Of a DNA stretch of 64,000 nucleotides, positions 13,383 through 47,145 are shown one piece after another. The stretch spans positions 14,073,201 through 14,137,200 of the forward strand of contig NC_092670.1 in the NCBI RefSeq assembly GCF_964355755.1, in the 5' to 3' direction. The translations under genes were made by a program, and so were the position numbers. Each line of letters begins with the position of its first letter. The stretch's first letter is position 1. The notes under the pieces are model-generated. The model did no database searches, was not told the DNA's origin, and worked only from the letters and a program-made list of their open reading frames with translations. This stretch comes from Antedon mediterranea (taxonomy: Eukaryota; Echinodermata; Crinoidea; Comatulida; Antedonidae).

Positions 13383-16300
13383 ATGGACACTATTTTAGAG
13401 AGCTGCTTATCATATTGTTGCTACTGCTGCAGTTGCTATGGCGACCCACGACATGCCAATTTATATGAGCCGCTACTGATGGAGGAGGAAAAAGACGCAG
13501 CAAATGATTTACTCTCCTACCTAAATACAGGTATGTAACTTGCTCATTAATATTCATGATTTAACTACGCATATCATTACAGAAGAATTTTTGTATATAT
13601 TTTTATTTTAGAGTTTTTGATAACCACATCACGGACTAACTTAGATCTATTATAATGCAAAATACAACACTATATAATTATACAAAAACTGCGTACAAAA
13701 TGGAAAACATATTTTAAATGTTGCGCATTAAGACAGACAAAAATCGATCAAAGTAGAAAACAGTATTTCCAGAAAAAGTTGCATGGTAGTCGACGGGAGC
13801 AACCATTCTAGAACCGGCAGGCTACAGTGTCATGTTTGATCCAACTTGGGTTAATTTAAGCCTAAAATAGTCATTGACTAGCTGTTGACATTAGTAGGCC
13901 CTATTTATTTGTATACAGTACTATCAAAATCATAACCAAACACATGTAATTTTTTTTTTCCCATACACATTCAATTAGTGACAAACTTACCAATTAAAGA
14001 ATGAGATAAACGATATGATTTATCATGCTTAAACTAAAGTCTTATTTGAGACTGAGAGAGTGCAGATGGAAACCAAACATAAACATATATTTCCATACAC
14101 ATTCAACTAGTGACAAACTTGCCATTTAAAGGATAAGATGAGAAACTATGATTTATCATGCTTATTACAACTAAGTCTCAGTAGAAATTGTTGTGAGTTA
14201 CATACAACACTGGCACTACAGTAGTAGGTCAGGATTGAACCATGGACATGGAATTGGAAGGCAAGCATGTTAACCACCAAGCCATAGCGCCAATACATTT
14301 CTTATTTCTTTAGATTATTAAATATAAAGTCTGATATCAAATTAGATAAAATGACATGTTATGACGCCCATCAGTCACAGATGCTCGAATTCAATTTTCT
14401 AAATAATTTTAATATTTATGGGTCTGTAAAACTCATTAGTAGTCTGACACAACTCATCAGTATAGCTCAAGTAGAATTCTAAATAACACACAGTTGTACA
14501 CTATTCAGAATTTAAAATTGTATGCATTCCTAATTTTTCCCCAGGGTTGAAAAAATTGCGTGATTATTGTTTGTATGTAATGTGCCATTAGGTTGGCTAT
14601 TTTAAATGCAATAAGCCTTGTAAGTAGGATGTATAACTGTAATTATTTTACTCCTTCTATTGTTTATTAAAAATTAATGCAACAACATTTAAGATATCAT
14701 ACTTATTTTCAACGCTTTATTAACTAGGTTTTTGTAAAATAGTATTTTCTTATTTAAATTTATTGTTGTTTGTATCCTCAATGCCTTGTTGTATTAGGTT
14801 CATATAATTTATAAGAAACATTAGAAATTTTAAACCTGGAGTTACTGTACTCTTTAATTTAAGGCAATGATAGCTACAGTATACCTACAACAAGTGCACA
14901 ATGGCCTTAGTGTAGTATATTGCAGGTTTAATTTGAATAAAAACAATTTATATAATTAAATGTTGTCATTAAATAATAAATATTTTGCAACGCATGACTG
15001 GTTTTGCGTGTATGGAAAAAATGTCATAATTTTAATCATATATTATGCTAATTAGGTTATATGCATTATCATGCATATAACTTCTTGATTCTGTCAAAAT
15101 CTTTATTAGTTATCCGCATTGAGCGGATAACTCCTTGTAACTGTCCTGTTACTTTTTTTTTTTCTTTCCTTCTCCCCCATTTTTGTGTCTCGCGTATCTC
15201 AAAAACTTGTAAACATAACATGTTATAACTTTGTCAGCATGAGGGAATTCACGTGAAGTTGTGCACCTCCTATTTTTTAATTATGTCAGAGTTGCGCAAC
15301 ATGGCTTACGCGCGATTTTATGAATTTCACATATTTAACATAGGTCAAAAACCAAATAACATTTTAAATTGAAACTTTGCAAAAGTTTAATTTATATCAT
15401 GCGCTAACTTTTTGTTGAAAAAAAATGCGTGTTTTACAAAAAGTTACGCGCGTACGCGCATTTAAAATTTCAAAATGCGCAAAATTAATTTCTAATCAAC
15501 TTTCTACGCGTTTCATGTCATTTTGAGCATGACAAAAATTCCCAGGCGCGCGCAAATTTTTACGCGCGCGGAGCACACGTACCGTTAAAAACAGATTTTT
15601 TCGCGTGATTTATGTTTTTTCAACCTTTTCTAGTAATTTTACCAACTTTTAAACAATTTCGACTTCAAATTACGTCATACGGGCACGTCGAATTGGATAA
15701 TTTATGTGCGTTTTTGATGAAAAAGTTCAAAAATTTGTCAAAATTTGTCAAAATTATACCTTTTTTTAAACAGTCGGAGTTTCTAAACTAAACGGTAAAA
15801 GTTATTTTTATTACGTATTTTGGAAGATGATGAGTTGTAGATCATGTATCATGCATCAATACGGCTTACCGGACATTGTGACGTCATCGTATGGCCATGC
15901 GAATATAAAAAATAGAATTTTTGTATCTTTCATCATAGCTCATCACATTTAATAGAGCGCATCTCCAATTATCTGTTTTCCATTTTCACCCCGATTTTTA
16001 TATTATCTAGGTCAATCAACTATCTTTCGCATGAGTTAAAATATTTTAATTTTTATGACGTCATCATGTCTAAAAATGAAAATAACGTGGGTCACTTATT
16101 TTCATCTTTACAGTAAATGTCAATCTGTTATAGCTCGTCAGAATAAAACGTGATAATCATGATTAAAACGTTTTCTGGAAGCTATTGGATTGTAGATACG
16201 AATTCATGTAAACATTTTGCCAATCGGATGTTGTGACGTCATCATATTGCCAGTTGAATAAAAAAAGTCGTATTTTCATATTTTGCGTAATAGTTCATCA

Positions 16301-19300
16301 CATTTAAAATGGCGCGCATCTATATTTTACGTATTCAAATTTCTTCCACACGTTAATATGTTGTTGCTGAGATAATTTCCTTCCGAAATTGCTATCTTAG
16401 TGTTTCATTTTGATACCGAAGCCGTGTTAAAAATAAGTATAAACGGGGGGACCCGTAATTTCACCTATTCTACACTGTATGTAACATGTATACAGATTAT
16501 ACCGTTTGCACTGTATATACTATATGACACAAAATTGACAGAATTCAGCACTAACAGCATATGATATTCTTCAGTTCAGGTCATAATGTCATAATCTTTT
16601 TCCGTGTGCAAAATTCCAACGTATGACGTGCGTGTGGCGTTTGTCGTGCGGATAACTAACTCGTCAAAGTGACGAGTTTCATGTCTAGTTTATTTATTTA
16701 TTTATTCTTTCCTTAGCACTATTTTGTCCGTGAATTATCTTGATATCAGTTTCATCTATCTAAGTCAATTTTTCAGAGTATATTCCTTATGGCCAGGAAT
16801 CGATGTGGTTATATTTTCACGATGCGTAATCAAAAATTACGCGGTCTACGCGCGATTTTACGAAATCACGTTTGTAATCATATCTTCACAAGCATGAATC
16901 ACAATTAAACAAAATTTGGTACTCATAAATTTCAGGTCATATTTTATCATATGGCAATACAATTACGTGCGTAGCGCATATAACGCTTGCGTACGCGCGC
17001 TTAAAATGTTCAAAATTGTCAAAATTTATTTTCGATGAAATTAGAGTACGTTTCAGGCAATTTTAAGCGTTTAAAAAATTGCCATGAGTGCGCAGATTTT
17101 TGCACGCGCACTGCGCGTTATACTTTAATGCGCACTCTTTTTGTCCAATTTCGGTTGTACAACCTTTCTTTAATAATATCATCATATTTTATTCACTTTT
17201 CAACGCGTAATTGCCTTATACGAGCACGTCAAAAGTGACAGGCTACGCACGTGTAAGTTAACAAAATGGTGAAAATATGCTAAATTTTAAAATTAATATA
17301 GATCGTCAGAATGCTCGGGAACACATATTTTTTATTTCATTTTCTTGAAGTGTATGTATCTTATGTATGATTTATTATTAAACTAAGAAAACAAAAGTTG
17401 ATTAAGCCATAATTAATTGCATATTAAATTTAAAAAAATTCATTTCGACAATCAAACAAATTATGACATTTTCTTAGGCCAAAATAACAAACTTAACATT
17501 AACTTTCTTCCTTCAAAAGTTCATATATTAAAGTTAAAAGTATATAGTTTGACAGTGCATCATTTTTGTACATTTTTAGAGATGTCATCATAGTAAAAAA
17601 TTATAATTCATTGCGGTATGTAATAATCTATCTGCACCAAAGTGGTTACTGCATAGTAAATACACGGAGGAATTTTTCTACAATTTTTAGTCAGTTGTGT
17701 ATGGCTCGGTGGTGTGTGCTCGTGTCTATGGCCCTCAAGGTACCGAGATCGAGTCTCACCTTGGGAAACGAAATAAGATTTTTTTTTATTATCCGTATTG
17801 TTTGTTCAAATTCATTTCTTAGTGTATATATTATACACATGATTTATAATGAAATCTAGATAAAAAATAACTTATGTCTTTATTATTATGTAACAGCAAA
17901 TTTGGTTTATGACATTATACGCAGAGGGATCTTTGATCGGATTGTGATACCGGCTATTGTATTCGCGTTAGCAAGGTCCTATCATATATTATAAATAATT
18001 AAAGAATCTGAGAAAATCAATGAATCAAAATATCTTTTAAAAATCAATTATCTTTATTTAAATCAATGCATATAACCTATAATTCGTCATAGTGACGAAT
18101 TAAATCTAGTTGATTTTTATGTTCATACATCTTAAACCAATCAGAAAATGTCATTATGAGGATGTTTCAGCTAAAGATGAACTTTGCTTGACCGTTGAAT
18201 TGCTAAGAAATCCGTAATTAGGTTAAACCAACAGCCATTGCGATAGAAACTTGTTATTGGATAATGCATGTATCTCCTCGCAATTCTAATTTTCTTCTAC
18301 AAGCGATACTTAAACTCGTTATGATCAGTCCTAACGAATGGAATTGTCCTATTCAGTGCAAAAATATGATTTGAAATTTAGAGTTTTAGCTTTTTTACTG
18401 TTTATTGTACTGTAACGAATTCAAGGTGTACAGTAACAATAACGTCGAAGTTACATTACATCCTATAAAAACATTTTTTTTACTAGTGGAAACATAAAAT
18501 TTGCGCCGTATGTTAAAACATCATTTTCATCGAGGGGCCTATAAGCACTGTATGCTTGGCTTCTATACCCAGGAAAATCCTGGGAATCAAGTAAACAAGT
18601 AAATAAACAAGTAATAGAAAATTATTACTGTATGAGTATTAAAATAAAATTCTAATCTAACCAACTTGAATAGATTCTAGTCATTTGATTGGATCATTGT
18701 GGGTCACATGATATAAATGAATGTTATGTAGCACCAGGGAAGAGTTAAATAATTTAACTCTTCCCTGGTAGCACTCACTCTTGATGTTATGTACTGTAGC
18801 AATCTCTTCTTTAACACTTTCTTCAGAGCCTACTAACAATCTCAGCTCTTTGATCTGTCACAATTTTGATTCAAATTCAATACAAACAAGGGATTGATGA
18901 ATACTGTGTACTAATTTTAAGATAATTTAATTAAGATAATAATTTTCAAAATCCTACTGATGGTCGACTCTACCAATGTGGACATCAGTGACCTTGTTTC
19001 CATTGTATCATTATGGTTGAAACCAAATGTGAGACCATTCAGACCCGGAGAGTTTCCTGTTGTCTTCAGACAGTCCAGTTCGACTGCTGTTCAACCACTG
19101 GGGGGGGGGTACGGGGGTTTGTACGTCGGAGAGTTCCGCTTGGCCTCCCCCTTTTTTTACTTTCGTCCGGATGTCTGGGGGTGTCGCATTCTTAAAAAAT
19201 GGCATGTGACGCTCTATAAATAGTGAAGAAATTACACCAAATTATACAACACTGCAGTAGTTCAGAAACACAAGAGATTAGCCGGAAATGCGATTTGCGA

Positions 19301-22300
19301 CCATCTAGAGAAAAAAAATTTGAGGGTATGGTTCCACTAAACAACTTAAACAAACCACCCCACTGTCAAAACTGGTTACGGCCCAGCAAACCGTTGCTTG
19401 TTATCAAATTTTGTCATTAAGTCTACCCAGGCTGCAATCAATACACCTTTAATGACTCCACTATCATGATGTGTATAAAATTGATCGTCAGTTCGAAAGA
19501 AGTTCAGTAGTTTCATTAAATAGTACCCTGGTTGCTTCTGTCGTATAATAACATTGATTTTACAATTTGCAAACTAAGTCAAATGTAAAAAACGAATACC
19601 AAAGGTCAGTTCAGTAGTTCCCTGGAATTCTTATAAGTTATATTAAAGATTCAGTATTCTAATTATTACAAGGATAGGAAATATCCACACTCCTGAAAGC
19701 CTAGACAGCATTTTTTCATTTTATATTACTTTAATTATTTCTTACTAAAATACCACACAGTACATTTTAAGTCCCACACTCAGGCTTTTTGGCTCAACCA
19801 AAAATCTCATCTCCACTTAAAACTTGAATCAGAAGTAATTATTGCGTGCTTCTATAGGTGTGATCCAAGGGAAACCTGAACTTCCCCTTTTGAAATTCTG
19901 AAAAATACAGTGCAGAGGATAGGACATTAGCTCTTCATTTCACAATCTCTAAAGCTTGGTTCCCACTAGAACGTAACGCATGGACGTAAATGCAACGCAA
20001 GCGTGTTGACCAATGACAAGAGAAGTTATAGACAGTTTAGCAATCACAAGCGAATAAACCATCGCTTGTGATTGGTCAATTCACTTGCTTTGCGTTACGT
20101 CCTTGCGTTGTGTCGCTAGTGGGAACCACGCTTTAGGTCCTCTGCTGAATCTCTCCTCCCCTCTCTTATTTCAAAATTCTTGATCAGCCTCTGGTATATG
20201 TTCATGCCAGTAGACTTTTAGATAGATAGCTGTACAGATATTTTTAATGTGGGCTTATTATAGTATAACATGATGATGGGCTTTTTATCCATTACATTTA
20301 ATTGTAGTAATTATGTACTTACTGTATTTATTCATTAAATATCAGTTTGGATGTTGAGTCAATCAGGTCTCATGTTTCTAGGTTTCATGTATTTTAATCA
20401 ACTAGATGGTACGCTCGCTTCGCTCGCGTACCATCTAGGTCGTGCCCACAGATGGTTCTCGAATACACGGTAATTTCAGCGTAACAAAACTGGCGATTTC
20501 AAATGTACGTACCGCGGGACTATAATACATAGTCGTTTACAGAAACGAATAAAGACACGATGATTTATGTAGTCAATTAAATTTGCACCCTGGGAATTAC
20601 TTCCGAAGGAGAAACTTACCACAAAATGAGTCCAAATTTTTGAATTTGTGTTTTGTATGTAACATTAGGGTTGAGGGATGGGAAAGCGGATAGGTACAAA
20701 GAGGAACAATTTTTAAATATATTCTTTATCCACTCAGTAACGAAATATTTTTTTCATGTTTTATAGGCCTATAAATAATATACCTCTAAATACAGTAAAA
20801 CATTTGTCAGTATAAAGTTTATTTGTATATCTAACAGTAGAGCCTATCCACAATCTCAGTAATAAAGTTTATTTGTATATTTTTATATTACATCTCTAAC
20901 AGTACGAACATTCACAGTAAGAAATGCTCGATTCAAATGAGGACAAAAAATAGTTAATAGGTATTTAATTTACAGTATTGTCAAAGTATTGCAAGTTTAT
21001 TCTCAAAGGGCCCATATATTTACCTACTGTATGTGTTAAACCAAGGGCTCATAAATTTACCTACTTGTGTTAAACCAAACTCTGGCAGAGTGAGAGATTG
21101 GGATGTTCCATTCATCGCAAATCAATACATTTGTATAATCGTATATTAAATCTATCAAAATAGTATTTTTTTAAGAAAATCGGCCTGTCTTCAACATTAT
21201 GATGCTGTACTCTAGCTGTTCAACCGGTTTTCAGCTATTAAAAACAATTATCGTAGGAGGAGATAGGAAAATGCGAAGCCTCCTCGCATTTTTCTGGCGG
21301 GTATTTTTCAAGATGGACATCCATTAGACAGTGTATACCACGATCGGGAAAACACCCCTATTTGGGGCAAATCGTTGAACCTAAATTCGTTTTAATCGTC
21401 AATAACTAATTATCTAACTTAATTTAATTAGTAAACAGGGTTACATCAGGTGGTTAAAATCAGTACCGAAAGTACGAACCAACTTTACATACCATCGAGT
21501 AAAAATTCTAGAAGTAAGGCGCGATTTACCAAATTTTGCCCTTACGTAAATTTATATATAGATGATTCTTTGTCGATAATTGTTGGGACTGTACAACGTT
21601 TGCATTTCTTTTGTTTCAACGGTGTCGTTATGCTTGCTTGATTCAATTTACTGTAGTTGTAGACACATGCTCAGCGCTATGTTTTTGTCTGGAGCAGACA
21701 ATAGTTTTCTATCTCTTTCAAATTTTGTGCACCAAAGTTAGTAAATCAGGTTTATCAATGGAATAATAGAAGGCACACCCTTATCTTGTTCTTTTATTTT
21801 ATCACATCCAACACTGAGTAAAGTATACAGTACCCACTAATTACAGGAAAGAAAATACAGTAATGATGCTTATCTCATAGGGAGTGGAATTGTTTATACA
21901 GCTATTGCACTAATTAAACTAATAATGTAACACTGGCTTCACTAAACTATTATTATTAATTATGGTATTATTTTAATTATTTCTAGTTTTGTTTAGTTTT
22001 TGCTAGTTCATAGCCCTTCCCATTGTTCAATAAGCCTACAGTATTGTTTTTTTATTTTTAAGAAATAAAACCCTCCACATAAATCCACTTGATAGAAAGA
22101 CAATACTACACTATTAATTATGGTATTTTTTTTAATTATTTCTAGTTTAAAGAGCTGAATTTGATTAGTTTTTGCTAGTTTATAGCCCTAATTCCCATGG
22201 TTCAATATTTTTTTATATTTTTTATTAATATGTAACAAAAAGAAAGAAAACCCTCAACAAAAATCCTCAACATGTACTTGATAGAAATATAAGACAAATT

Positions 22301-25300
22301 TTCAGGAATGAAATGTAGACTTGCTAATGAACCAAATATTACAACTTTTAATGATAGTAAATCCACATGTGGACTAATTGAATGAACATGTTTGTTACAA
22401 ATCCACCAACCATGAAATATACTCATTTATGATCGATTTTAAGCCAGAGGGAAGCATGATCAATACTCTGCACGCCGTAAAAATCAACGCTGGATTTCCT
22501 AATGCACTTTGGATGCTTCAGATTCCTGTGAGAATTTCGCCAGTTGTGATTTTTTTTTACAATCAATTTTATGAAAACAAAGATGAAGTGATTTCCATTT
22601 TAATATTTTCAAATTCACAGGCTCAGAGATTTAGAATTTTAGTATATCTACAGTACCTAACACACGTTGTTTTTAACTGTTCAGTGTTACTGTATTTTCA
22701 GGCTGCGTGCCATTTAAAGATGTATTGTCCCCCTGACAAACTAATTATTCTAATTTTTGTTGTTGAATATGGCATTTTAATTTCTTCTAATAGTTATCCA
22801 CTTTGACCAAAAATTAGATCGAAAACAATTTTGTTTACCTGAAAAAACTGTAATTTAAAGCAAAAAATAGTCAAATTGGCTGCCAGCCAATGGATTTTTG
22901 GTTGAATTAACCATTTATTTTATCATTTTATAATGGAAAACATTATTTGTTTCCATGTTTTTTTTTCTACGGAAGTGGTTAACTTTATTAAAACTACAAA
23001 ATAACCTATTCAAAGTCTGATTTAATTAATCTTCATTTTTTATGTTTTTGGGGGACAATACATCTTTAACTGATTACTGAAAAATTTTACAATCAATTTT
23101 ATAAAACAAAGATAGAGTTATTTCCATTTTTAATATTTTAAAATTCACATCAGAGATTTACAATTTTAGTATTATTATTTAGTATTCGCCTTAACACAGA
23201 ATTGATCGAGTGTTTTTAACCATTAGGCCTACTGTATTTTGAGGGTGCCTGCCATTTAACCGTTTTTTTTGCAGCAGAAACAGTACCTAAAGTTCGACTT
23301 ACTGTACCAGGAATTTTAGACAGGTTTTGACTTATCATTCTTATTCACACTATGGTTCACTAGTTTAGTATTATCTCATAGTCTTTGTTAAATTGCTATT
23401 GTTGATGCCAAGGCTTTAGTATGGCTTAAGTCTATTTAAAACTGACTTTTATAGTCTACTGTTTGACTTGATAACAAATAAAATATTCCTACTGTATCTC
23501 TTCCCTACAGAAATGACCCATAACATATCGATTAAAAGATAATTGTATGTTGCATTTTTTAAAGTGTGTTTTCATGGAGGGTCACTATTTCTCAGATAGG
23601 CGATACCTTGCATTAAAATAGTAAGTTTATTTATGATGATTAGGTTTTACCTTTCAAGGTCAATTTTATAACAACAGACATTAAAAATCTATAATTCTAG
23701 GTGTCAAACATTGAAAACATTTTACATTTATGTTTGAAATAGACTGACAGGTGCGATCAAGGATTTGTTTAACGGAAAAGCACTTGGTACTAAACATAGT
23801 CTTTCAAAAATACATCAAAAATGATTCCATAATTTCATTTTAGCTGGATCCACCTCTGTTTGTGGGTGTGGATAGGGAGGTGCCAAGAAATGGTGATGGT
23901 AGTTTGCAAGGATGCTTCCACTTGTGGGCATGCAGTAGTTTGTGGACTATACCAATTGTGGATAAGGGTGTCCATTGAATTTTCAATCTTTTTAGTTATA
24001 CAGTAGGTTTATCCAGGTACAGTAAGCGGCACTCATAGACTACTGTACCACCAACACTACTGTTGTTTTGTGTATAATTTGGAGATGGCTATTTAATAGT
24101 TCAATATGCCATCATAATTTCTTTCCATTGGTAGAATATGCAGGTGGTAAGATATACAGTGATAATTTCATTTTACAGTAGAAGAAAAATCATATACAGT
24201 GTGTCTATTGTTAGTTTTGGTTCAATCACAAAGCAGGTGGCAATCAGATGTAATCTATTTTTTGCACTCTATTGTTAAATACCTTTTAGGGCCATTTCAA
24301 AATTATTCTACTGCATTTACTGCAGTAAACTATACTTTTTTTACTCTTTAACCTGATTATGCTTATTTAGCAAGGTTTTTTGGGGTACACACTGTTTATT
24401 GCGACACCTCTAAAAAGTCTAGAATTAGGAAAACTAAAATCATTGGTTATTTCAGTGAAAAATATAGTTACTGCAGTAACTGCAGTAGAATAATTTTAAA
24501 CGATCCCTTATATTAATGTATTTACGAGTCAGCTTCAGTAATTTTTACTTCTTACCGTATCAAAGCTTTTGGATTCTAAAATATTATTATTGTTAAAAGA
24601 CAGAAAGTTTATGGTGCATAATTATTTTCTGTATTCAATAATTGCAATAGCTGACCTATTTCTTAATAATATAACTGAACCTTATCTTCTAAATAATCTA
24701 GCTCAAATATGAAAAAAGAAACCAATGATATCGATAGGTTTCCAATTCAGGTCTTCAGATCCAATGAATTGGTAGATATGAAATGTTTGATCTATTCCCG
24801 TATTGTGTGTAGATTTTAATTTTAGCCACCAGGAGCTTGGATACGGTTCCGTATCCCTGGACACAAATTTAATTTTCACCATATTTTTTCATATTGTCAT
24901 GTGTGTAATCTTTATCAAAAGCAGTAACAAAAGTATCTTTGTTTTTTGTTTTTTTTTCAGATAGTGGAGAAAAACCAACAATTAATGAAAGGCGTTTTCG
25001 TGCATTGTGTGTTTTAACATATTCTGAAAATGTGGATTTACAAAGATCAGCTGCTCTATGGCTTGCAGAAATTAGCGAAAAATGTAAGTTTGGTAAAAAT
25101 ATGTCTTCCTCTATCATTTTTGTCTTCATCATTATTATCATCATTGTCATCATCATCATCATTATCATCACCAAATGATACTGTACTTTACTCCTAACCT
25201 TGAAAATAAGAAGCTACTGTAGATTTATACTCTTCTTTGTACAGTACTTGGGGTGACCTCTTTAGTATTGGTCACCAGTATGGTCAACACACTGAACAAT

Positions 25301-28300
25301 TCCCTTTTCAAATAATAGACAGTATCAAGTTTAATGTGCCATGTATGTACATTGGACCAACAGCTTTACATCCCATTCAATGGGAGTTGAGTATCATTGC
25401 CTAGGGTTACAATGCAAGAAATATGTCACAGATAAATATTTAACCCATGTCTTTGACATGCCATAGTAGTAAGATCCGTTACCAGTATGCCACTAAATAA
25501 TATACTGATGCAACAACATAAAAAGTGTCATTTTTGTCCTGACGAATATTGTATTGTCAGAGCTGGTATTAAACTGTCAGAGCCGGTATTAAACTAAAAA
25601 AAAGAATTGAAAAAAAAACTTAATTGTAAATGTGCCATAATTATTTCTCTATCACTATATTTATGGTTAATTATCTTCCACTTTTTTTTCTAGTGTTACA
25701 GCCAATAACTATACGTTTGATGAAGCTGGTGATAGCCCTACTAGAATCTGGTGATATAGAGACACAAAAGGCAGCCTCGCTTGCTCTGAACAACCTTGCT
25801 GTGCATGGCCCAGGTAAAGATTCTTGACTACTCATTCCTTCCTCAACAGGAGCATGAAAAAAGATCAAATGTGTTCAGGAAGTGAAGAAGGCGATGTTAT
25901 TAAAGAAGCATTAATTATACCATCAATTCAACTGGATCACACAAGCGAAAAATGTCATGTACCTATTAGTGAACCTTTCGAACCTCATCCGAGGATTCTT
26001 CATCAGCACTAACTAGTCAGGCTGTCAGACAGTTTAGTGTGTATTCAGTAACATGACTGAGATGTAATGGGAAAGTCACATGATTCAATTCAAATTTCTT
26101 GTACTGTAGGTCTTGGGTAAGATGTGTCGCCCGAAGTCATTGGTTAGATCCGGAGAGGGCATCCTTCACTCCTCTAGAAGAAGCCTTTTTTAAAGAACCA
26201 TCATATTTTCTATTGAAATTTGTGAATGTTAACTTTTTGCTTCTAAAAATACATATGTTATAAATAATGTGAGCTACATTATTCTTTACAATAAATCTTG
26301 CAGATAGACAAAATGACTATGTGAGTCAGTGTACAGTAGACAGGCACCACAAACTTCTCCACACCGTGACATGTTTAGTTTTCTTGTGTAGGCTATAGCC
26401 TTTTATTGTGTGATACATGATGCATGTGCTGTCAATGACAGCGTCATTGTTATCAACTACTTTTAAAATAATATTGATATGCCGTGACAGTTTTCGTAGA
26501 TTCTCATGAATAAACATTGACAAGACATCCGAAAGTGGTAATGGAAATTCTCGATTTATAGGCTGTATATTTTCATATTAATAACCTTCAGCAGTCATGC
26601 TCGGCAGTGAGTCGTTTATATTATTCATTAGTGTCTGTAATATAACATAATGTCTGTGCATGCGATTAAATTGTACATTATTGTTATATTACCTACAGTA
26701 TGTATATTATGAAAAGCAAAAATCGTGGCCAGTTGGTCAACAATCATTTGACAATAAGTGGATTTCACCATCAGACATGGTATTTAAAACTCACTATATA
26801 TTTCATTCAATGTTCAATGTTATTCACCAAGCTACAGTTCCACTTTTAATCTGTTGCTATACAATACAATACAAATCTTTCTTTATTCTGGAATAGCTCT
26901 TTCAATACACAAGTACTGGTCTCCCAAGAGGCCAAGATTTGAAAAAAAATACAAGAAAAATAAAAGCTTATGTACAATAGAAATTATACAAGATTTTTAA
27001 ATTCAACTTGACTAAGTGTCTCATAATTTTTACGGATATGTACAGGAAGATTAATTAAACATTCTCTTTCCATGAATATTGTTCCATGCTGGAACATTTA
27101 GAGTTTTGGTTGATTGACTTCTTATATTTTTTGTGTGAAAAGTGTCCATAAATTTGAATGGATTTGTTAAATAAGATGATTTGAATCTCGCGTACATTGC
27201 ATAATATACTATTGTTGCGTTTTACATCTTAAATAAGAACCGTTATAAAAAATAATAATGTAGATCACGATATATATTAAAGCAACTAAACTGTTTTATT
27301 TTGTGCGTGTGTTGCGTTTTACATCCTAGGATGCGTTCAAGCAACACTCCATGCTAATTAATAAACATGTAGTTGGTAACCGATAACCACACATAGCTTT
27401 ATGTAGTACTACTAACTTGCGTTTGAGAAACAAATCACAGATTTTACAATTGGGTATTTTTAATTAAGTATCCCATAATTCCATTTGTTATTCACATACA
27501 TTTTTGTTAAATAATATTTAATAATGTAGCTCACGGTATTCATAACATTAAAACGGCTGACTAGGCCATTTCAGGTTTTAAAAGTTCATTCCCTTAATTT
27601 TCAATATGCACATAACCTTTTAAGAAATGTCTTTGAACATATCCTACAGCATACCTGTAAATGTAGTGCATGTTTGTTTAATAGTGTTTCTAAAATATGC
27701 AACATTTTTTTAAACATAAATCTTCAATCAACTGCCAATTAGCGATAATGAGAGTTTAGTTAGGCCTAATAGACCCCAAGGGAGTTGTTGGTTTGATTAA
27801 TATTATAATGCACTTTATCCAGCTATTGAAATGGATTTTGTACTCTGCACAAGAAAAGTACAATTACTGTACCAATTAACAAAAATCTTAATACCTCTTG
27901 CATGAATTTTGTGAGCGAACATATTAGCTTTTAAAAATGTATTTGTTTTTATATTTTTTTAATTATTTTTTGAGGGTACAAAAAGAAAGCATGTTAAAAA
28001 AAAACAAATTATGAAAAACAATCAACCATATTAATTAATATAAATGTTTGAATGGTTCTAGTGTTTTTTTAAAGAATTTACTGTGTAACTTTTCTTATTC
28101 CAGATTGTAATAAGGACATTATCATAAAAAGCGGTGGACTACGTGTTTTAATCCGATTGCTGCGCTCTTCCAGCCTGGAGGTGAAATGCAACGTATGTGG
28201 CTGTATAACATCACTGGCTACCTCAGGTAAGCAACCCATGTGCACATTTTAAATTAATCTCATGAATAATATGCTGCGATGCGTCTGTTAATTGGGAGCC

Positions 28301-31300
28301 TTCGATTTTCAACGACCTAACTAGGTCAGGTCAATAGATGTCATTGGTCGTTGACTGGACCTAAACCAGCAAAACTGTGTCGAGGCGTGGAGTGAGAAAT
28401 CACGTCCCAATATCCCTGAAAGCGCACAAACAATTGACATCACATACAATAGTTTGGTTGTCGGTCGTCGCAAAATTGTTACCGTTACTTTTTAAGAATA
28501 AATTATACAATTTCTTTGCAGTTATTAACCCACCCTGAGATATTGTATAATCCCACCTCTAGTCAAAATTTTCCACCAAATTTACAGTAGTTGGCAATTT
28601 TGCCTTTTTCGATACACAAAATTTGCCATACTAATGTCCATATCCAAATGCATATATTTTTATAAAATTCACTTTCAAAGTCACACTTTCTATTACAGTC
28701 CAGAGCACATACATAAAAGATACCTTCAACAGTTAAAAATAAACACAATTCATGTCTGTGGCACAAAAAAGAATCGAGTGAGTGAATGTCATGATTGAGT
28801 TGAGTTCAATACTCCTTTCAAGGTCGTATACATGTTATGTAACATTTAAAATTTAAATAACATTTGATATAAATTACTATTAATATTAATTATTATTTGT
28901 TTGTTTTTGTTTTATTTATTTATTCAACTTTATTTCATTAGTATCTACAATACAGCAGTACAGCTGACTCGAAGAGGCCCTCTACAGAAAATAACTCAAA
29001 ATACCTCAAAACATCAAATTCATAAATTGTTCATAGAAATTTAAATTTATGACTGTAGCACATATAAAATATATAAATTGTACCATTTTTAGTGGGTTTT
29101 TTCCAACTAAAATATACTTTCAATACAATACAGTGTTCTGCACTTTTTTACAAGAAGTAAACAAATAGAAATTAATACATTAAAAATGATAAGAAAAGGA
29201 GTTCAAAGGTGATGTAATTCCAAACAACTTTTAGAAAGTATTCTTCCATATTTACATAGAGAAAGAACAGAATATGAAATGTCGGTCATCACTATAGATC
29301 ATTTAAAATTTATTCTACTGCAGTTACTGCAGTAATTATATTTTGTTTACTTATTATACTGATAAATGGTAATATTTAGCAAGCTATTCATACACTAGGC
29401 TGTTTATTACAATGAATTTCTAATAAATTTCTACTAGTACTAGGGAGTTGTAATTACTGCAGTAATGAATAATCACATGATCCCTAAGATTTATTATACA
29501 TGCTTAAATACATTAACATGTGTTGTACAGGGAACCTCATAAATTCATTTTACATATACTATTCTAAATCTGTAATGCATTTATTGACTTTACCTGCTAA
29601 AGCTTGGTTCCCACTAGAACGTAACGCAAAGACGTAAATGCAACGCAAGCGTGTTAACCAATGACAAGCGAAGTTATAGACGGTTAGCAATCACAAGCGA
29701 ATAAGCCATCGCTTGTGATTGGTCAATTCACTTGCATTCTGTTACGTTGCAAGTGGGAACCACGCTTAACACAGAATACCAGTTACTGACTTTATCAACA
29801 AATTAAGTAAAGTGTAACTAAACTAATATGACACACCCCTGCAACACAGCCTATATCCTGTAGCATTAATTTCTAGTATTCTACAAAAACAATTAAATCT
29901 ACCAATACATATAATTTTGTTTTCAGACCTCAACAAACGTGAGATAGTTGTGAAAGGTGGCATTAAACCTCTGTTGACATTAGCAAAATCGCAAGACATT
30001 CGTGTTCGTCGAAATGCTGCTGGGGCACTCCTCAATCTGACCCACATTGGTATGTACTAAAAACGAAGAGTGTAGAATCAGTGGCTGAACGTAACCAAAA
30101 TGTCCTATATTTTGCATTGCACTGTTCGATATTGGCCAACTGCACACACACCCACTTCCAAACCTTGGATCCGCCTATGGGAATTAGAGTGTGATCTTTT
30201 GATCAAAAGTAAAATTTCAACTTATGCCTAATTCAATTACATCATTACTAGCATGTGAAAGCATTTTAACTTGATAAGATTATTTTGGGAGATATCCTTA
30301 ATAACATTGTTAGATTTTGTTAGACATTTGTGTTTGTGAATCCACTATTAATAGTGGTCTGTGTGGTTAACATACTTGTTTTCTCAGAATCCAAGGTTCA
30401 ATCATTTGCTCAACCAAAGATTTTTTTGTTATGAAATAAGTAAAAATACAGCTCTACAGTATCTACACTATCAAACTTGCTGTGACAAAAAAATGTGATG
30501 TGCCCATAAAGCACTGTCTACACTATCAAACTAGTTTGACAAAAAAAGTGTGATGTACCCAAATATGGTAGTGATACTGTACAGTATGCTCAAATATGGT
30601 AGTGATACAGGCCCGTATGCAGCATTTATAATGGGGGGGTGCGAGCGAAGCGAGCAACAATGGCTGGGGGCCAGGGGGCCGCCAAGGGCCCCCGGTCAGG
30701 GTCCAGGGGCCGAAGGCCCTGGAAAAATTTGCGTTATTTGACGTTCTAAAGACTGATGTAAGACTCTCTGTTGTGGCTTGGGCTAGTTGAACGATGGACA
30801 CCAGAACTTAACGCTTTCATGATGAGGCCAACTCAGCAGGGGTGGCGCCAGGATCTTCCCGACGCGGGGGCTACATTCCCCGACGAGGGGGCTATGCGAG
30901 CGAAGCGAGCATCACTAGGCTGAGGGCCAGGGGCCGCCAAGGGCCCCTGGTGGGAGTCCAGGGGGCGAAGCCCCCGGAAGCAACGCATTCTAGCGTCATT
31001 TGAGGTCTTTTTAATCAGATTTAGGGTAGCCATTTTTTCCATTTTTTATAATGCATAAATAAAATACTGCGTGCAAAAAAACGATGCGCGATGACGGTTT
31101 CAATCCATATTTTTCAATTTAAAAAATAAAAGTTCAAAGAAAATTTTGAAAAATAGAGTTGGAGGTCCCGGAAATTGGACTTATTATACTTCAAAACATG
31201 AAAAAAAATATATAAGTCCCTATCATGGGTTGTGACTGAGCTAAGAAATGTTTGAAAAATAGAGATGTTAGGTCCCGGAAAATGTACTTCTTGTTCTTCG

Positions 31301-34300
31301 AAATATGACCAGCTTTATTGTTGGGGCTGAGCTAAGAAAATGTTTAAAACTAGAGCTGCAGGTCTTCAAAAAATTGCATTTTATACTTTGGAAACATCAG
31401 GCCTAGAGGCTTAAAAAACGCAAGCGTAGACCTTTTTCAGTTGGGGAAAAAAGTTTATTCCTCCCAGGTGTATGCATGCGTACCATCTGGACTTCCCCGA
31501 GTGATGAGAAATTCATGACATACAGGATATTGAAAATGTAATAACTATAGCTATAATGTTGGCTAAGCGAAAATGGCATGTTTTTTTGTTTAGTAATGGA
31601 TGAAAAATTTATTTTAGGTGCCCCACGGTACAGAAGGTTATAAATTAAAAAATTGGTGAACAAACGAACAATTAACATAATTCGTTTTTGCTGTAGTGTA
31701 GCGTACGTCGACGCAGTACACGACGTAACCGTCGGTAAACTTCGCCTGGAAAATAACACATTACACATTTTGGTCCCTGGATGAAACTTGATATCACGCG
31801 TCTCGACCCAACGTTGAACGATTCGTACAAAGGGATACCGCCAGACAAGTGCGTACCTAGCTATTGTTTAGTAGTAAGTTAGATCGCTGGCAATAATGAA
31901 TGCATATAAAGTGCATAATATCACTCTGACGTACTCTCACGGTCAATGAAACGTCGCGGTTTTCTAGGCGCTGAAGCTAGCTACGAAGTGAACGCGAAAG
32001 TTTTTTACTGTATATTATATTCCCCGACAAAAAGTACACGTGTTCCCTGACGTTAAGTTGTCTGTATTTCTCCAGCAAACACTTTACCGCGTACCGCGTA
32101 CATGAAGCGCTAAGCTATTGCTTGTCGTCACATGATCGACTGCGCATGTTTTACATCGAGTTTGTAGTCAGTTCAGATTCCGTAATTTAATTACCGGTAT
32201 TTTTTCATTTTATATTAGCATATTTTTGTTTGTATACCATTGATAATGTAAATTTTGTATATATATAATGATATTGTCAAAAAATACCAACCGAGGAAAT
32301 AGTGGACCTTTTGGGACTTGGGAGGGTGCGTCTGCACCCAACGCACCCCCCCTGGATACGGGCCTGTGATATGACATCATCATGTCCATATATGGACACA
32401 TCTCAATTTTGTGTCACATAAAGTTTGATGGTGTAGACAGAGCTTTATATGGACACGATGACATCATATCACTACCATATTTAAGCATATCAGTACCATA
32501 TTTGGGCTTTCACTACCATATTAGGCACATCACATTTTTTGTCACATTATGTTTGATAGTGTAGACAGAGCTTAATAGATGTTCTTCTCTAAAATAATCA
32601 CATGTTGAATTGGTATTTTGCAGATGCTAATAGACAAGCACTGGTGTCAGATGGCGCTATACCTGTGTTTGTGTCCTTGCTCAGTTCTGAGGATACTGAT
32701 GTACAATATTACAGTTCTGCTGCCCTCAGTAATCTAGCAGTCGATGAATCTCATCGTAAACATGTCAGCAAAGAAGGAAACCACAGAGTGTTACGCTCTC
32801 TTATTTTTCTTCTTGACTCACCGATTGATAAGGTTTGATTTTTTGTTATCATTCAGAATAGTATTAGAGTATATCAAAACATGCAAACTTGCATAAATAG
32901 AATAAATCATGAATATATGTATACTAACAAAATTGTCTTATAATTGTGTTTTTTCTTAAAGGTCAAATGTCAAGCCTGCTTTGCTTTACGGAATTTGGCC
33001 TCAGATGGTATGTATATTATAAATTAATAATGTTCATCTCATATAGTGTTTATTGCACAATGCTTCTTAAAGCGCTTCACATTATTACCCCGGTCATTTT
33101 GTTGGATCAAACACGTATGAAAAAGTACTCCCACATTGCAGCTAGTCAGTGCAAAGTTGTGTCTTCATCTAACCGGGTACCCATTTATAAACCTGGGTGT
33201 ATTATACATAATACTTGTTATTTGGTAGCTTAATTTCATTATCTTTTTCAACACTGTGCGAATAACTGTCCTATGACTGATTTTTGTTTTATTTTTCAGA
33301 ATCTAATCAAGTAGCCATTGTAGATTTAGGATCACTTCCTCCATTACTAAGGATTATCAAGACCAGCAAAAAGGACACTTTGTCTGCTGCCGTAGCAGCT
33401 GTTCGTAACCTTTCAATACACAGACAGAATGAGGTACAAAATTAATCCTTTAAATGTAACTTTGTTTGTAAAATAATTCTTTACAGAACCGTTCAATTTT
33501 CTTATGGGGTGATTTTGTCTTTCTTGTCTGTGATTGTTTACAAAGTTCAAACAAATGTAATTTTTTTTTCTACATACAGACACCAATTGTACAAGAAGGA
33601 TTTTTACCGGAACTTTGTAGGTTGCTATATGAGCCTATGATATGGGAAGTGCACTGCCACGCTGCTGGTACATTAAGGAATTTAGCTGCAGGAGATCATG
33701 TAACGGTAATTGGTGTTTTAAAATCCTTTGTCCTCTAAAAAGCATACATTGTGTCTTTGCCCAAAACTGTGTCAAATTGAGCAATGTCAATCCATGCACA
33801 TAGTGTGACATGATGTAAGTTGTTTGTACTGTAGATCATCACAAATCAAAAGCTACCTACTAACTGTTAATGTTTTTCAATCACACTAAAGTTTTTAATG
33901 CCTCCTCTTCACAGACAATCTTAAGCTCTGGTGGTTTGGAGAGTTTAGTAAGTACCTTTATGGAGAGTACCTCACCGGCGTCAGTTCAGACTGAAGTGAC
34001 AGCGGCTCTTGCTGTCATGTCAAGTGATGGTAGGTGTATTATTCAATTCAATTTATTATATTATTTGCATAAAATAAATAGAAAAGTTGTGTTTCTCTGT
34101 GACTACAGAAAATAAAATACAAAAATAGTACAAATACCATGCCACACATCATTCTTTAACATTAAGTGCTGTAATGGCAGATTGGTAATATTACGGAATT
34201 TATTTGCACAAGAGGTGATGGACTGGAACTATCTGCCGCTCCTAAGAACTTTAAAAATATATTGCATGGGATGAGTTGGGTCTTGTAAAGTTGAATAAGT

Positions 34301-35465
34301 TTTCTTATTCTCTTATCAACAATAGTTTTGATTGAGCTCTGCTCAATTCAACTGACATGTGAAGCATAATTGACAATATGTTGGAGTTCAAATTATTATA
34401 TAACAAGAGGCCTAAAAGTGTTTGATTTTACAAATAAACAGAAATCAACTTCCATTTTCCTTTTTCTTCAGATGATGCCAAGCAAAAGTTATTAGAAAGT
34501 CATTCCGGGCGCTTCTTTAGTCGACTTGTTAACTTAGCTGTCAGTTCACCACACTCTGAAGTGCAATACAACAGCGCGGGCATTATCGGGCAAGTAGCGC
34601 TGCTAAGTAAGTATATTATTAAGTTGTCAAAAGTTTTTAAAAAAATAGAAGATATTTTTATTGTTTCTTTTTCATGATGCTAAAAGTATTAAATTTGTTT
34701 GTGAAACACAGTAAAAAACACACGCTACCGATTATTATATACCTCCTTGGTGGAGGTAAAACATACACTACAAAAGGATTTCTCTTAAGTGGTATTCACT
34801 TCGATAGAAATGTTTGACAAAATACAACTATATAAAATGTAAAATAAGAGAATTGCTCTTCATCTGTGCAAACTCCAAATTCATCATTGTTGGTTTTTGG
34901 TGATGTTTATTATAACATCTTAAGCTCTGTCTACACTATCAAACTTTATGTGACCAAAAAATGTGATGTGCCCATATATGGACATGATGATGTCATATCA
35001 CATATTATTTTCTTACTGTATTTTACTTCAATTGACACATTTATTCTCTTCAGCTATTCCGTCAGAACTTCTGAAAAATAATGTTGTTGGAATTCTCAAG
35101 TATTTGGAAAAGTTTCTTCGCAGCAAAGATACAAACTTCATCCACATTGCTCTATGGACTTGCGTTCAGTTATTGAAAGGTAAGTATTGAAATGTAAGGT
35201 TCCGGGTTTCAGTATCCTGGGAGTCTTGTTTCAGGCTGGATGTAGACATAAGACTTTAAAATGGATGATTGTCCTTGTCAGAGAAAAAAAAACATATTGA
35301 TATTTTAAACTTTCTAATAATTATTTTCATTTTGCAGATGAATCATTTCTGATGTCCTTCCGTGAAAGTAACATACCAGCCCAAGTTAAAACACTGCAAA
35401 TGATATCATCACTTCCTCTGCACATTAAGGAGCTTGCAGGCACTGTGCTGGAAGAGCATTGTTGA
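13383..35465 (+). CDS. VAC8: Vac8-like armadillo-repeat protein
   Basis: Thirteen coding exons with matching phases encode 551 residues: 13383-13530, 24961-25083, 25694-25813, 28104-28226, 29927-30049, 32624-32832, 32962-33007, 33300-33433, 33580-33705, 33915-34029, 34472-34606, 35054-35179 and 35338-35465. The protein aligns from end to end with yeast Vac8 (578 residues). The N-terminus has a Cys cluster ([12 protein letters not shown]), then armadillo repeats with Vac8-like stretches such as [32 protein letters not shown] and [14 protein letters not shown]. Arg292, Arg333 and Arg375 sit at the same 41 and 42 spacing as yeast Arg276/317/359, the groove triad that binds Nvj1 and Atg13. Fungal Vac8 is a palmitoylated vacuole-membrane adaptor; a lysosome-membrane adaptor role here is inference. 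Unlike yeast there is no Gly at position 2, so N-myristoylation is not expected. Exons 2-5 each hold one 40-41-residue repeat. Confidence 0.93.
13960..14165. repeat. Imperfect tandem duplication, about 125-bp period
   Basis: The sequence CCATACACATTCAA.TAGTGACAAACTT followed by GATTTATCATGCTTA occurs twice, at about 13970 and about 14093. No coding content. Confidence 0.7.
14205..14310 (-). repeat. tRNA-derived SINE fragment
   Basis: Read on the minus strand it has an A-box-like TGGCTTGGTGG, the shared core TTAACATGCTTGCCTTCCAA and a perfect B-box-like GGTTCAATCC. It shares this core with the copy at 1885-1990, so it belongs to one dispersed family. Confidence 0.6.
15108..16688 (+). mobile_element. 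Helitron-like nonautonomous element, copy 1
   Basis: The 3' end has a 9-bp stem hairpin (AACTCGTCA / TGACGAGTT, 16658-16678) followed six bases later by CTAG at 16685-16688 and then T, the usual Helitron 3' layout. Near the proposed 5' end is a hairpin of AGTTATCCGC and GCGGATAACT (15108-15132), and GCGGATAACT recurs just before the 3' hairpin. The body is rich in CpG words such as ACGCGCG, unlike the flanks. No Rep/helicase frame is present. The 5' boundary is uncertain. Confidence 0.5.
16689..18109 (+). mobile_element. Helitron-like nonautonomous element, copy 2
   Basis: The 3' end repeats the layout of copy 1: stem AATTCGTCA / TGACGAATT (18081-18101), then AAAT and CTAG (18106-18109) and T. 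The body resembles copy 1 in order and CpG-rich words (TACGCGCGATTTTA, GCGTACGCGCGC). The 5' boundary is not resolved; the start given is simply the end of copy 1. A tRNA-like segment at about 17700-17770 lies inside. Confidence 0.45.
17700..17772 (+). repeat. tRNA-like (SINE-type) segment
   Basis: An A-box-like TGGCTCGGTGG is followed at normal tRNA spacing by a B-box-like GAGATCGAGTCTC. I cannot fold a clean acceptor stem, so a decayed tRNA-derived repeat is more likely than a functional tRNA gene. Confidence 0.4.
18733..18769. repeat. Perfect foldback palindrome
   Basis: Two 18-base arms, ACCAGGGAAGAGTTAAAT and its exact complement, are separated by one base. Related foldbacks occur at 48535-48577 and 52683-52715. 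Confidence 0.85.
19950..20135. mobile_element. Palindromic MITE of about 180 bp, copy A
   Basis: The ends TAAAGCTTGGTTCCCACTAG and CTAGTGGGAACCACGCTTTA are inverted repeats, and the interior AATCACAAGCGA...TCGCTTGTGATT continues the palindrome. A second copy lies at 29598-29768. Confidence 0.85.
20402..20445 (-). mobile_element. Helitron-like 3' end on the minus strand
   Basis: On the minus strand a strong hairpin (arms GATGGTACGC and GCGTACCATC with a GCGAAGC-rich loop) runs into CTAG followed by TT, like the ends at 16688 and 18109. The element would extend rightwards from here; its other end was not found. Confidence 0.4.
20800..21080. repeat. Two short local duplications
   Basis: ATAAAGTTTATTTGTATAT occurs twice (about 20812 and 20862), and a second pair built on ATTTACCTACT..TGTGTTAAACCAA occurs at about 21018 and 21055. 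No coding content. Confidence 0.6.
21945..22290. repeat. Tandem duplication, about 165-bp period
   Basis: The blocks at about 21947-22100 and 22113-22290 share TTAATTATGGTATT, TTAATTATTTCTAGTTT, TAGTTTTTGCTAGTT, TATAGCCCT and AAAACCCTC in the same order. Confidence 0.7.
22547..23262. repeat. Duplicated 170-bp block split by a TTAA MITE
   Basis: Blocks 22547-22717 and about 23085-23262 share TTTTACAATCAATTTTAT, TTTCCATTTT, TCAGAGATTTA.AATTTTAGTAT and a terminal TGCCATTTAA. The first ends in the MITE; in the second the same site is empty (TGCCATTTAACCG). Confidence 0.75.
22714..23069. mobile_element. TTAA-type MITE, copy 2 (best preserved)
   Basis: It is flanked by TTAA on both sides with terminal inverted repeats AGATGTATTGTCCCCC and GGGGGACAATACATCT. 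The interior shares GGCTGCCAGCCAATGG with copies at 11104-11451, 40188-40454 and 47936-48150. TTAA duplications are typical of piggyBac- and Kolobok-mobilised elements. No coding content. Confidence 0.85.
24288..24509. mobile_element. CTGCAG-type MITE, copy A
   Basis: Inverted ends read AAATTATTCTACTGCA..TTACTGCAGTAA on the left and TTACTGCAGTAACTGCAG.AGAATAATTTT on the right. A related copy lies at 29296-29486 in another intron of the same gene. Confidence 0.7.
25113..25173. repeat. ATC/ATT microsatellite
   Basis: A run of TCATCATTATTATCATC-type trinucleotides follows exon 2 of the Vac8-like gene by about 30 bases. Frames that appear open on both strands here are low complexity. Confidence 0.85.
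25824..26012 (+). other. Unassigned short open frame in a Vac8-like intron
   Basis: A frame of about 50 codons from the ATG near 25854 has balanced, coding-like composition ([27 protein letters not shown]). A plausible acceptor, CCTCAACAG, precedes it. Its phase does not fit exon 3 of the Vac8-like gene, so splicing to it would stop the protein at once. It could be an alternative terminal exon or a gene remnant. No homology recognised. Confidence 0.2.
29296..29486. mobile_element. CTGCAG-type MITE, copy B
   Basis: It starts AGATCATTTAAAATTTATTC followed by TACTGCAGTTACTGCAGTAA and ends AATTACTGCAGTAATGAATA followed by ATCACATGATCCCT. Ends and an inner CTGTTTATT match the copy at 24288-24509. 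Confidence 0.65.
29598..29768. mobile_element. Palindromic MITE of about 180 bp, copy B
   Basis: It closely matches the copy at 19950-20135, including GGTTCCCACTAGAACGTAAC at the left and AAGTGGGAACCACGCTTA at the right. It lies about 160 bases upstream of exon 5 of the Vac8-like gene. Confidence 0.85.
30451..32574. mobile_element. CTACACTATCAAAC MITE, broken by insertion of the element at 30608-32366
   Basis: Left parts with CTACACTATCAAAC occur at about 30462 and 30518, followed by AAATGTGATG and ATATGGTAGTGATA. The right part (32367-32574) continues with TGATATGACATCATC and ends GTTTGATAGTGTAGACAGAG. Several nested half-copies are present, so the history is more than one insertion. Confidence 0.65.
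30608..32366. mobile_element. DNA transposon of 1.76 kb with 5-bp target duplication
   Basis: The left end CAGGCCCGTATGCAG and the right end, reversed, CAGGCCCGTATCCAG are terminal inverted repeats, each followed by a run of G and TGCG. The 5 bases TGATA flank both sides (30603-30607 and 32367-32371). The left interior has two GC-rich blocks with CGAGCGAAGCGAGCA and GGGGCCGCCAAGGGCCCC. No transposase frame is visible, so it is nonautonomous or decayed. A 5-bp duplication with CAG-starting ends would fit some hAT-related groups; the superfamily is not established. Confidence 0.75.
34917..35003. mobile_element. CTACACTATCAAAC MITE, left half only
   Basis: It begins AAGCTCTGTCTACACTATCA and runs through ATGTGATGTGCCCATATATG and ATGATGTCATATCACAT, then breaks off about 50 bases before exon 12 of the Vac8-like gene. 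Confidence 0.65.
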
Positions 35466-36315
35466 TGTGTTGTTTTAGGCTAGAAATGGTAGGCCTAGGC
35501 ACAGAATTCTAGCCGACAGGACAACGGTCTACCATAGCCAACAGGACAGGAGTCTACCATAGTCAACAGGACAGGAGTCTACCATAGCCAACGGGACAGG
35601 ATTCTACCATTAGCCAACAGGTTAGGAGTCTACCATAGCCAACAGGATGGGAGTGTACCATACCCAACATGACGGGAGTCTACTGTAGCTAACAGGACAA
35701 AGATCTATTATAGCCAACAGAACATGAGTCAAGCATAGCCAACAGCAACAGGACAGGAGTCTACTATAGCCGTCCGGACAGTCTCTATGCATCATATTCT
35801 ATTGGACATTGATATGGTCCTCACATGTGATACTATATCATAGAATTTGGCTAATAATATACTGGACAAATTGTAGTACTCAGAAACGGCTGCCTGTTCT
35901 TTGAATTTAATAATCCGGAGAAACTCTTAAACTCAAAACCAACCATGATAATGTTAAGATAATAAGATACATTTTACATGTCCTCTTGAAACCCTTTTTA
36001 CCAAAGCGTTTACTGGCACCGCCCAGAATAAAACCTTCCAGTAGAAATAGTAATGTATTAGTGTTTTGTATCGTAATACTGGTGTTGTATAACCTAGTGT
36101 TTTATATATTGTTTATGGTTGTAAATAGTTCTGTGTTGTGAATATACCAGCATGTAACAAAATACTGTAGTATTAGGCATTTTAGTACAGTAAGAGTTCA
36201 CATAGAGTGGGTTGTAAAAAGATGTAAATAAGGAACTCTTTTTATTGCTGTTGTATTCTTTATTATAAAAGAATGTAAATCCCAGTTGAAATAAACACTT
36301 TGGATTTGTGCTGGT
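35466..36315 (+). other. Vac8-like 3' UTR, probable
   Basis: It follows the TGA stop at 35463-35465. An AATAAA at about 36290-36295 is the nearest good polyadenylation signal; further AATAAA motifs occur near 36620 and 37905. The first 320 bases are mostly the 25-bp array. Confidence 0.55.
35509..35785 (+). repeat. 25-bp minisatellite in the Vac8-like 3' UTR
   Basis: About ten to eleven copies of a unit reading AGCCAACAGGACAGGAGTCT followed by ACCAT, increasingly diverged rightwards. It begins about 45 bases after the stop codon and would be transcribed. Confidence 0.9.
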
Positions 36316-45553: not shown

Positions 45554-47145
45554 ACTCTAACCTAAAAATAGACAAAAAATTTTAAATAAAATGAGAAAAG
45601 TTCTTATAAAATATTTTAGGATTTTACATTCATTATCTTTCCAGATTTGAATTGACTTTAAATATTTTTTTTAATATTTCATACACTCGCAAACGATCAC
45701 CTAATAATTGTTCTCCGCAACAGAACACTTTTGGTGGTTCTTCAACCAACCTTCTCACCCGCACATTCCCCATGTATACATAATGTTAAGTTATCCATTA
45801 TAAATAAGGGCCCGTTTGCACTTTACAATTTGCATCATTTGTAATGATCATGTGGTGTGGGTTCCTTTGGGTATAAAATTTAATTTGCTGGATTTTTTAA
45901 TTAGTGTACTCCTTAAACAGCAAGCTAATTACCCACAAGGAGCAATTTTGACCTTACAGTACTAAGTGTAAAAAGATGCATGAAAAAATACCTTGCTGGG
46001 TAAATAAAAAGAACAGGTTGACTGGTTAATCCTAAGAGTAATTTAGGTTACATGTAATTGAGTTTAAATAAAGTCCGAACACAGCCCAAGTTCATCTCAT
46101 TGAGTGTTACCGGATGTACCAGGCATAGATGACAGAATCGGAACTAAAAACATTTTGCTTACTTTTTGTCACGCTTTATATTTGTATTCGGAACAACGGA
46201 CAAGACTATCCTTAATTTCATATGTTGTATGGTGCACTGACAGCGTATTAAATTGTATAATTAAGTGGACAGAATATAGTAAAGGGCCTACTACTGTAAT
46301 AACCAAAAGTTGGCACTGATCTTAAACTCACAATAAAAATGAAATTACTTTTATTTATATAAAATAATACATGATATAATTGACCAAGAACAGGCTGCAG
46401 AAGCGTTTTCAGAACAAAAACATAGTGTGTGAATAATGTGAGCACATTACATGGCGATAGAAATGTAAAATGTACAGTACTGTAGAAACTCAGAAATAAT
46501 ATAGATAAATAAATATCCTATATGATACAAAATAAAGTTAAGCTTATCAACTTGAATCTAATTTAAGCCTGACCTAGCCTTTTAAAAACTGGTATCAATA
46601 AATTGAATTCGAAAGTTTTGATTTCGAAAGAAAAGATTAAGAATTTCTGTCTCTAAAACTTTACCCTCTCTCTGCCTCTGGTTTGCATTTAATTAGAGCT
46701 TGTCAAATAAATATATGCTTTGGCAAATATGACGCCCTATTATTACACATTCGAAGATATGAGAAAGAAGTTGATAACAATCAACTTCATCAGGGTACAA
46801 CATTGAAACTTGGAGCGACTGTTCTGATCAAAATCAAAACTACGACAGGAACAGATCAGATCGACAATTGGGTGGCTAGTATGACGCACAGCGTCCGAAA
46901 CTCGACGAGTGTGCCGAACAACCGGTGATGAAAATCATTAAAATTTCTTTTATTAGACATAGATCCGACGAACAGACACAATTACTCAGTTCACTATACA
47001 CATCTAACTATTAAAACACTAGCTGATTTACTTACTAAGCGTTAATTATCAACAAATTTATGATTTTTCTTCTCCACTGTGTGGCGATTCAGCAGCTGCA
47101 ACTCGCTTTTCTTTCATGGCGGGTATTGTTCCGTTTTGTAAATTA
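45554..47145 (-). other. Probable spliced 5' leader of the ZNF800-like gene
   Basis: On the minus strand a GTAAGT donor at 47035-47030 and the acceptor at 45563-45562 would define an intron of about 1.47 kb and leave an eight-base leader before the ATG. The first exon would start near 47140. A small frame (ATG about 47118 to TAA about 47058) lies within it. A plus-strand frame at 46683-46928 in the intron shows no recognisable product. Confidence 0.45.

Follow-up and report, generated by a model that had tools for sequence, protein, structure and literature searches.

A Vac8-like gene in the crinoid Antedon mediterranea and the conservation of its putative peptide-binding groove

Yeast Vac8 is a membrane-anchored vacuolar docking protein that acts as a hub for vacuole inheritance, nucleus–vacuole contact, and the initiation of autophagy. 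Its known binding partners, Nvj1 and Vac17, are fungal; in yeast, Nvj1 is described as lying along ARM1–12, and Arg276, Arg317, and Arg359 of Vac8 are the residues that we take to contact Nvj1 and Atg13. The apicomplexan ARO is an armadillo-only protein with an acylated N-terminus. Solved structures of yeast Vac8 (PDB 5xjg, 6kbm, 6kbn, 7ycj) serve for comparison, and PMC12734321 describes yeast Vac8 as myristoylated on a Gly and palmitoylated on Cys4, 5, and 7, and fungal Vac8 as having a large C-terminal loop.

In animals, the name is already in use. A sequence-only reading of the locus described here, which knew of no clear one-to-one vertebrate counterpart, had implied that it was novel, and this part of the reading is not supported as it stood, since "vacuolar protein 8" labels exist in coral, snail, and chicken. 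Coral genes of this name stand under KEGG K08332 (39 copies in one KO), a published paper names a snail (Biomphalaria) gene "vacuolar protein 8", and chicken LOC421690 is called "Vacuolar protein 8-like" in print. Such labels can be loose, as the 39 coral copies in one KO suggest, and some are probably generic ARM matches; these genes are named after the same yeast protein and are likened to the Antedon gene by name only. Judged by annotation, animal members of the family have already been reported, perhaps a vertebrate one among them. A 2011 study names vac8p in fungi and plants where it discusses catenin relatives, and no functional study of an animal Vac8 was found in the extracts of the literature searched by full name.

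Structure of the locus and similarity to yeast Vac8

The window analysed is a stretch of 64,000 nucleotides of the A. mediterranea genome, in which a Vac8-like gene occupies positions 13383–35465 of the forward strand (Table 1). The 551-residue protein, earlier assembled by hand, was rebuilt exactly from 13 exons with 1656 coding bases and one terminal stop; all 12 introns are GT-AG with matching phases, every junction having been tested by script on the raw sequence, and the shared runs quoted before, including FIHIALWT, are present in the protein.

Table 1. Exons of the Vac8-like gene and an adjoining splice signal, in window coordinates
Feature	Position	Strand	Basis or remark
Exon 1, N-terminal cluster of six Cys (C8, C12, C13, C15, C16, C18), then H1-helix-like tail	13383..13530	+	Top of 258 donors against Vac8 H1
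Exon 2, ARM1	24961..25083	+	Splice model; Vac8 alignment
Exon 3, ARM2	25694..25813	+	Splice model; Vac8 alignment
Exon 4, ARM3	28104..28226	+	Splice model; PF00514 match
Exon 5, ARM4	29927..30049	+	Splice model; PF00514 match
Exon 6, ARM5 and beginning of ARM6, LSNLAVDE	32624..32832	+	PF00514 match; top match of yeast Vac8 in genome
Exon 7 (46 nt), ARM6 helix 3, Arg292 = Vac8 Arg276	32962..33007	+	Splice model; alignment
Exon 8, ARM7, Arg333 = Vac8 Arg317	33300..33433	+	Splice model; alignment
Exon 9, ARM8, Arg375 = Vac8 Arg359	33580..33705	+	Splice model; alignment
Exon 10, ARM9	33915..34029	+	Splice model; Vac8 alignment
Exon 11, ARM10/11	34472..34606	+	Splice model; Vac8 alignment
Exon 12, last ARM	35054..35179	+	Splice model; Vac8 alignment
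Exon 13 with stop codon; C-terminus lacks the disordered loop of yeast	35338..35465	+	Residues 512–551 outside Vac8 alignment
Possible splice acceptor AG, just 5' of start codon	13364..13365	+	70% pyrimidine in preceding 20 bases; upstream frame open

Among solved structures (PDB chains), yeast Vac8 is the top relative of the protein (E about 1e-102, 348 bits) in one collinear stretch covering residues 33–511; the resemblance that had been claimed along the whole length stands for these residues, with residues 1–32 and 512–551 lying outside the alignment. Identity reaches 45% over 466 aligned positions in this comparison of one animal with one yeast sequence, and the two proteins are alike in an H1-like helix, collinear ARM repeats, and a Cys-rich N-terminus. 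The next natural armadillo family, behind a number of designed armadillo proteins, is ARMC4/ODAD2 (2.7e-26, 96 bits, residues 101–422), which has armadillo repeats in common with the Antedon protein but is about 1044 residues long and scores far lower. In the opposite direction, yeast Vac8 searched against the Antedon genome ranks this locus first, so that the two are reciprocal best matches within the scope of the PDB and the animal's own genome, and a search of that genome with the protein itself found no second copy of a Vac8-like gene. The orthology proposed earlier is borne out by the collinear match, the reciprocity, and the single copy, and at the level of sequence it is well supported that the Antedon gene is the clear single-copy counterpart and orthologue of yeast Vac8.

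Profile searches returned no NCBIfam match and, in Pfam, only ARM/HEAT-type matches, which do not distinguish Vac8 from the remaining ARM families; no relatives were found in a scan of prokaryote genomes.

Several other features lie in the window. A minisatellite at 35510–35753, with a 25-base unit TAGCCAACAGGACAGGAGTCTACCA in about 9.7 copies, begins 45 bases past the stop codon, probably within the 3' untranslated region. A dispersed repeat, GATGTGCCCATATATGGACATGATGATGTCATATCAC, occurs in three near-identical copies at 2421–2457 (+), 32366–32402 (−), and 34965–35001 (+), with none expected by chance; two of the three are in introns of the Vac8-like gene, and the repeat resembles a member of a family of mobile elements. 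The downstream neighbour gene at 42920–45556 (−) has an 878-aa open frame with C2H2 zinc fingers. Further on, a 491-aa open frame at 54367–55842 (+), without a Pfam match, is proline-rich, then acidic, and ends in a hydrophobic segment, TGCCVIMLLTFAFLVLVALCAVLAYYYVGK; it may encode a tail-anchored membrane protein. Upstream, a 445-aa Arg/Ser-rich open frame at 5467–6804 (−) has no Pfam match and a BCLAF1/THRAP3-type likeness by eye only.

Conservation of the groove

Arg292, Arg333, and Arg375 align with Vac8 Arg276, Arg317, and Arg359, as had been proposed, and to judge by their helix-3 position they would face the concave groove. Their exact spacing of 41 and 42 residues, offered at that time as evidence, has no independent value, because the three occupy the same place in consecutive repeats of 41–42 residues, which is the armadillo period; each single Arg is also unremarkable, since 4 of 26 other ARM repeats of the genome carry Arg at the same helix-3 position.

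Groove-facing positions can be derived from the armadillo fold and the Trp/Asn ladder of importin-alpha, and we defined a groove stripe as the H3 positions −8, −7, −4, −1, 0, and +3 around the conserved Asn. In ARM2–8, 34 of the 42 stripe positions (81%) are identical to yeast Vac8, a figure whose exact size is somewhat favoured because the stripe was picked after the position table had been seen, a choice shared by the mispaired control, in which stripe identity drops to 62/252 (25%). Identity is 39/63 at the non-stripe positions of helix 3 and 63/161 (39%) in helices 1 and 2 of the same repeats. When only positions −7, −1, and +3 are counted, correctly paired repeats agree at 20 of 21, which no other pairing out of the 5040 attains. 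By subtraction and by inspection of the individual repeats, the stripe is fully identical in ARM1 (6/6) and identical at 7 of 18 positions in ARM9, ARM10, and the last ARM.

Judged by alignment, the ARM1–8 groove is conserved from yeast to the animal and its C-terminal part is not: the ARM1–8 stripe and the three arginines are common to both proteins, whereas the groove of ARM9–12 has diverged. The groove conservation expected from the three arginines appears to extend well beyond them, and by aligning it to a family whose complexes have been solved, we infer that the animal protein keeps the same groove.

The N-terminus and a proposed membrane adaptor

Exon 1 lies 11.4 kb from exon 2. We scored 258 phase-compatible, stop-free stretches upstream of exon 2, each with a GTA or GTG donor at its end, against the Vac8 H1 helix, using a yeast H1 segment that agrees with the solved-chain alignment from Ala21 onward. 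The last 16 residues of exon 1 scored 29, the next best stretch 18 (mean −2.3, sd 6.0), and residues 1–90 as the sole query against the PDB set retrieved Vac8 alone (residues 33–90, E 4e-6). Because of this best H1 match and this exclusive retrieval, exon 1 is, by its sequence, part of the Vac8-like gene despite the long intron, and an H1 helix is predicted ahead of ARM1 by sequence match alone.

All six cysteines of the cluster lie within residues 8–18 of the 551-residue model. The CCSC of the animal N-terminus resembles the acylated Cys4/5/7 region described for yeast (PMC12734321); the Cys cluster is longer in the animal, and Gly2 is absent from the model, which starts Met-Asp. If the modelled start is right, there would be no N-myristoylation. 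A loss of myristoylation is nevertheless no more than a possibility, because the putative acceptor upstream of the start codon lies in an open frame and leaves room for another first exon, which could join in phase 1. At the other end, the animal protein has about 40 residues past the last ARM and lacks the large loop of fungal Vac8.

We consider it likely that the animal orthologue is a cysteine-anchored ARM solenoid of the endomembranes whose groove clamps a peptide of a partner and thereby tethers the organelle or complex to which that partner belongs. In this model, S-acylated N-terminal cysteines would fix the solenoid to an endomembrane on its cytosolic side, the likeliest membrane being lysosomal or late endosomal. 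An extended peptide of the partner would be clamped by the concave groove, to which ARM6–8 supply the row of three arginines, and the partner's organelle or complex would thus be tethered to the membrane. Here we infer the fold, the lipid anchoring, the choice of membrane, and the adaptor function. ARO is similar in its armadillo make-up and its acylated N-terminus, the latter putative in the animal protein, a likeness drawn from description; ARO does not figure in the list of the 60 top solved matches.

Against this mechanism stand the missing Gly2 of the model and the stripe of ARM9, ARM10, and the last ARM, which is poorly kept relative to yeast Vac8. These differences, together with the longer Cys cluster and the fungal nature of Nvj1 and Vac17, would suit a genuine orthologue of Vac8 in descent that, like apicomplexan ARO, serves as a general acylated adaptor of the ARM type at another site (plasma membrane, cilium, or vesicles), with no role in the vacuole, lysosome, or autophagy. 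A Nematostella apical-organ gene, "Arm-repeat containing 4, yeast vacuolar protein 8", flagged as cilia-related, points the same way, but it is probably ARMC4. We regard such a function elsewhere as rather unlikely, given that the ARM1–8 groove matches yeast repeat by repeat, and it is from this repeat-by-repeat retention that we argue for a retained class of ligand in the tethering model. ATG13 exons were found in the genome with a segment of human ATG13 as query, the Pfam ATG13 profile having missed them; their presence in the same genome makes ATG13 a possible candidate ligand of the animal groove and no more.

Family membership and biological meaning

The arginine before the conserved H3 Asn in 4/26 other ARM repeats could suggest a generic armadillo likeness, with the gene belonging to another animal family (ANKAR, ARMC3/4, beta-catenin, importin-alpha). 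Small maximum-likelihood trees, built with beta-catenin and importin-alpha sequences together with the genome's exons of what we take, by recognition of their sequences, to be APC, ANKAR, and ARMC5, left the placement unsettled, with outgroup branches of 2–10 changes per column and unstable joins. These trees join APC or ANKAR to the protein without solid support, but they do so on branches of 3.7–10 changes per column, below the support threshold. In E-value, Vac8 and the next natural family lie about 76 orders of magnitude apart, and in pairwise BLAST comparisons Vac8 reaches 330 bits and 43% identity over 482 residues, whereas importin-alpha, beta-catenin, ANKAR, APC, and ARMC5 give at most 66 bits and at most 29% identity over shorter stretches. 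The best similarity is thus to none of ARMC4, ANKAR, beta-catenin, importin-alpha, or APC, the repeat register and groove signature agree with Vac8, and membership of another family is very improbable.

Fungal contamination or a recent fungal transfer is scarcely credible: the best solved match is fungal, in a set of structures where yeast seems to be the sole source of Vac8, yet the gene has twelve introns and just 45% identity to yeast Vac8, and it lies within a contig of 41 Mb in a genome whose 38 Wnt-family exon matches mark it as animal.

Overall, we favour the endomembrane tether. It could be supposed further that animals keep a palmitoyl-only, Vac8-type lysosomal docking hub whose ARM1–8 groove still accommodates an ancient ligand that fungi also have, for instance ATG13 or an unknown contact-site protein; this we hold to be unlikely, but if true, it would be an undescribed yeast-type lysosome tether in animals. 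Conservation of the ARM1–8 groove far exceeds that of the remaining protein, which would imply that fungi and animals share a constrained peptide ligand, and the interest of the gene lies in that ligand on the animal side.
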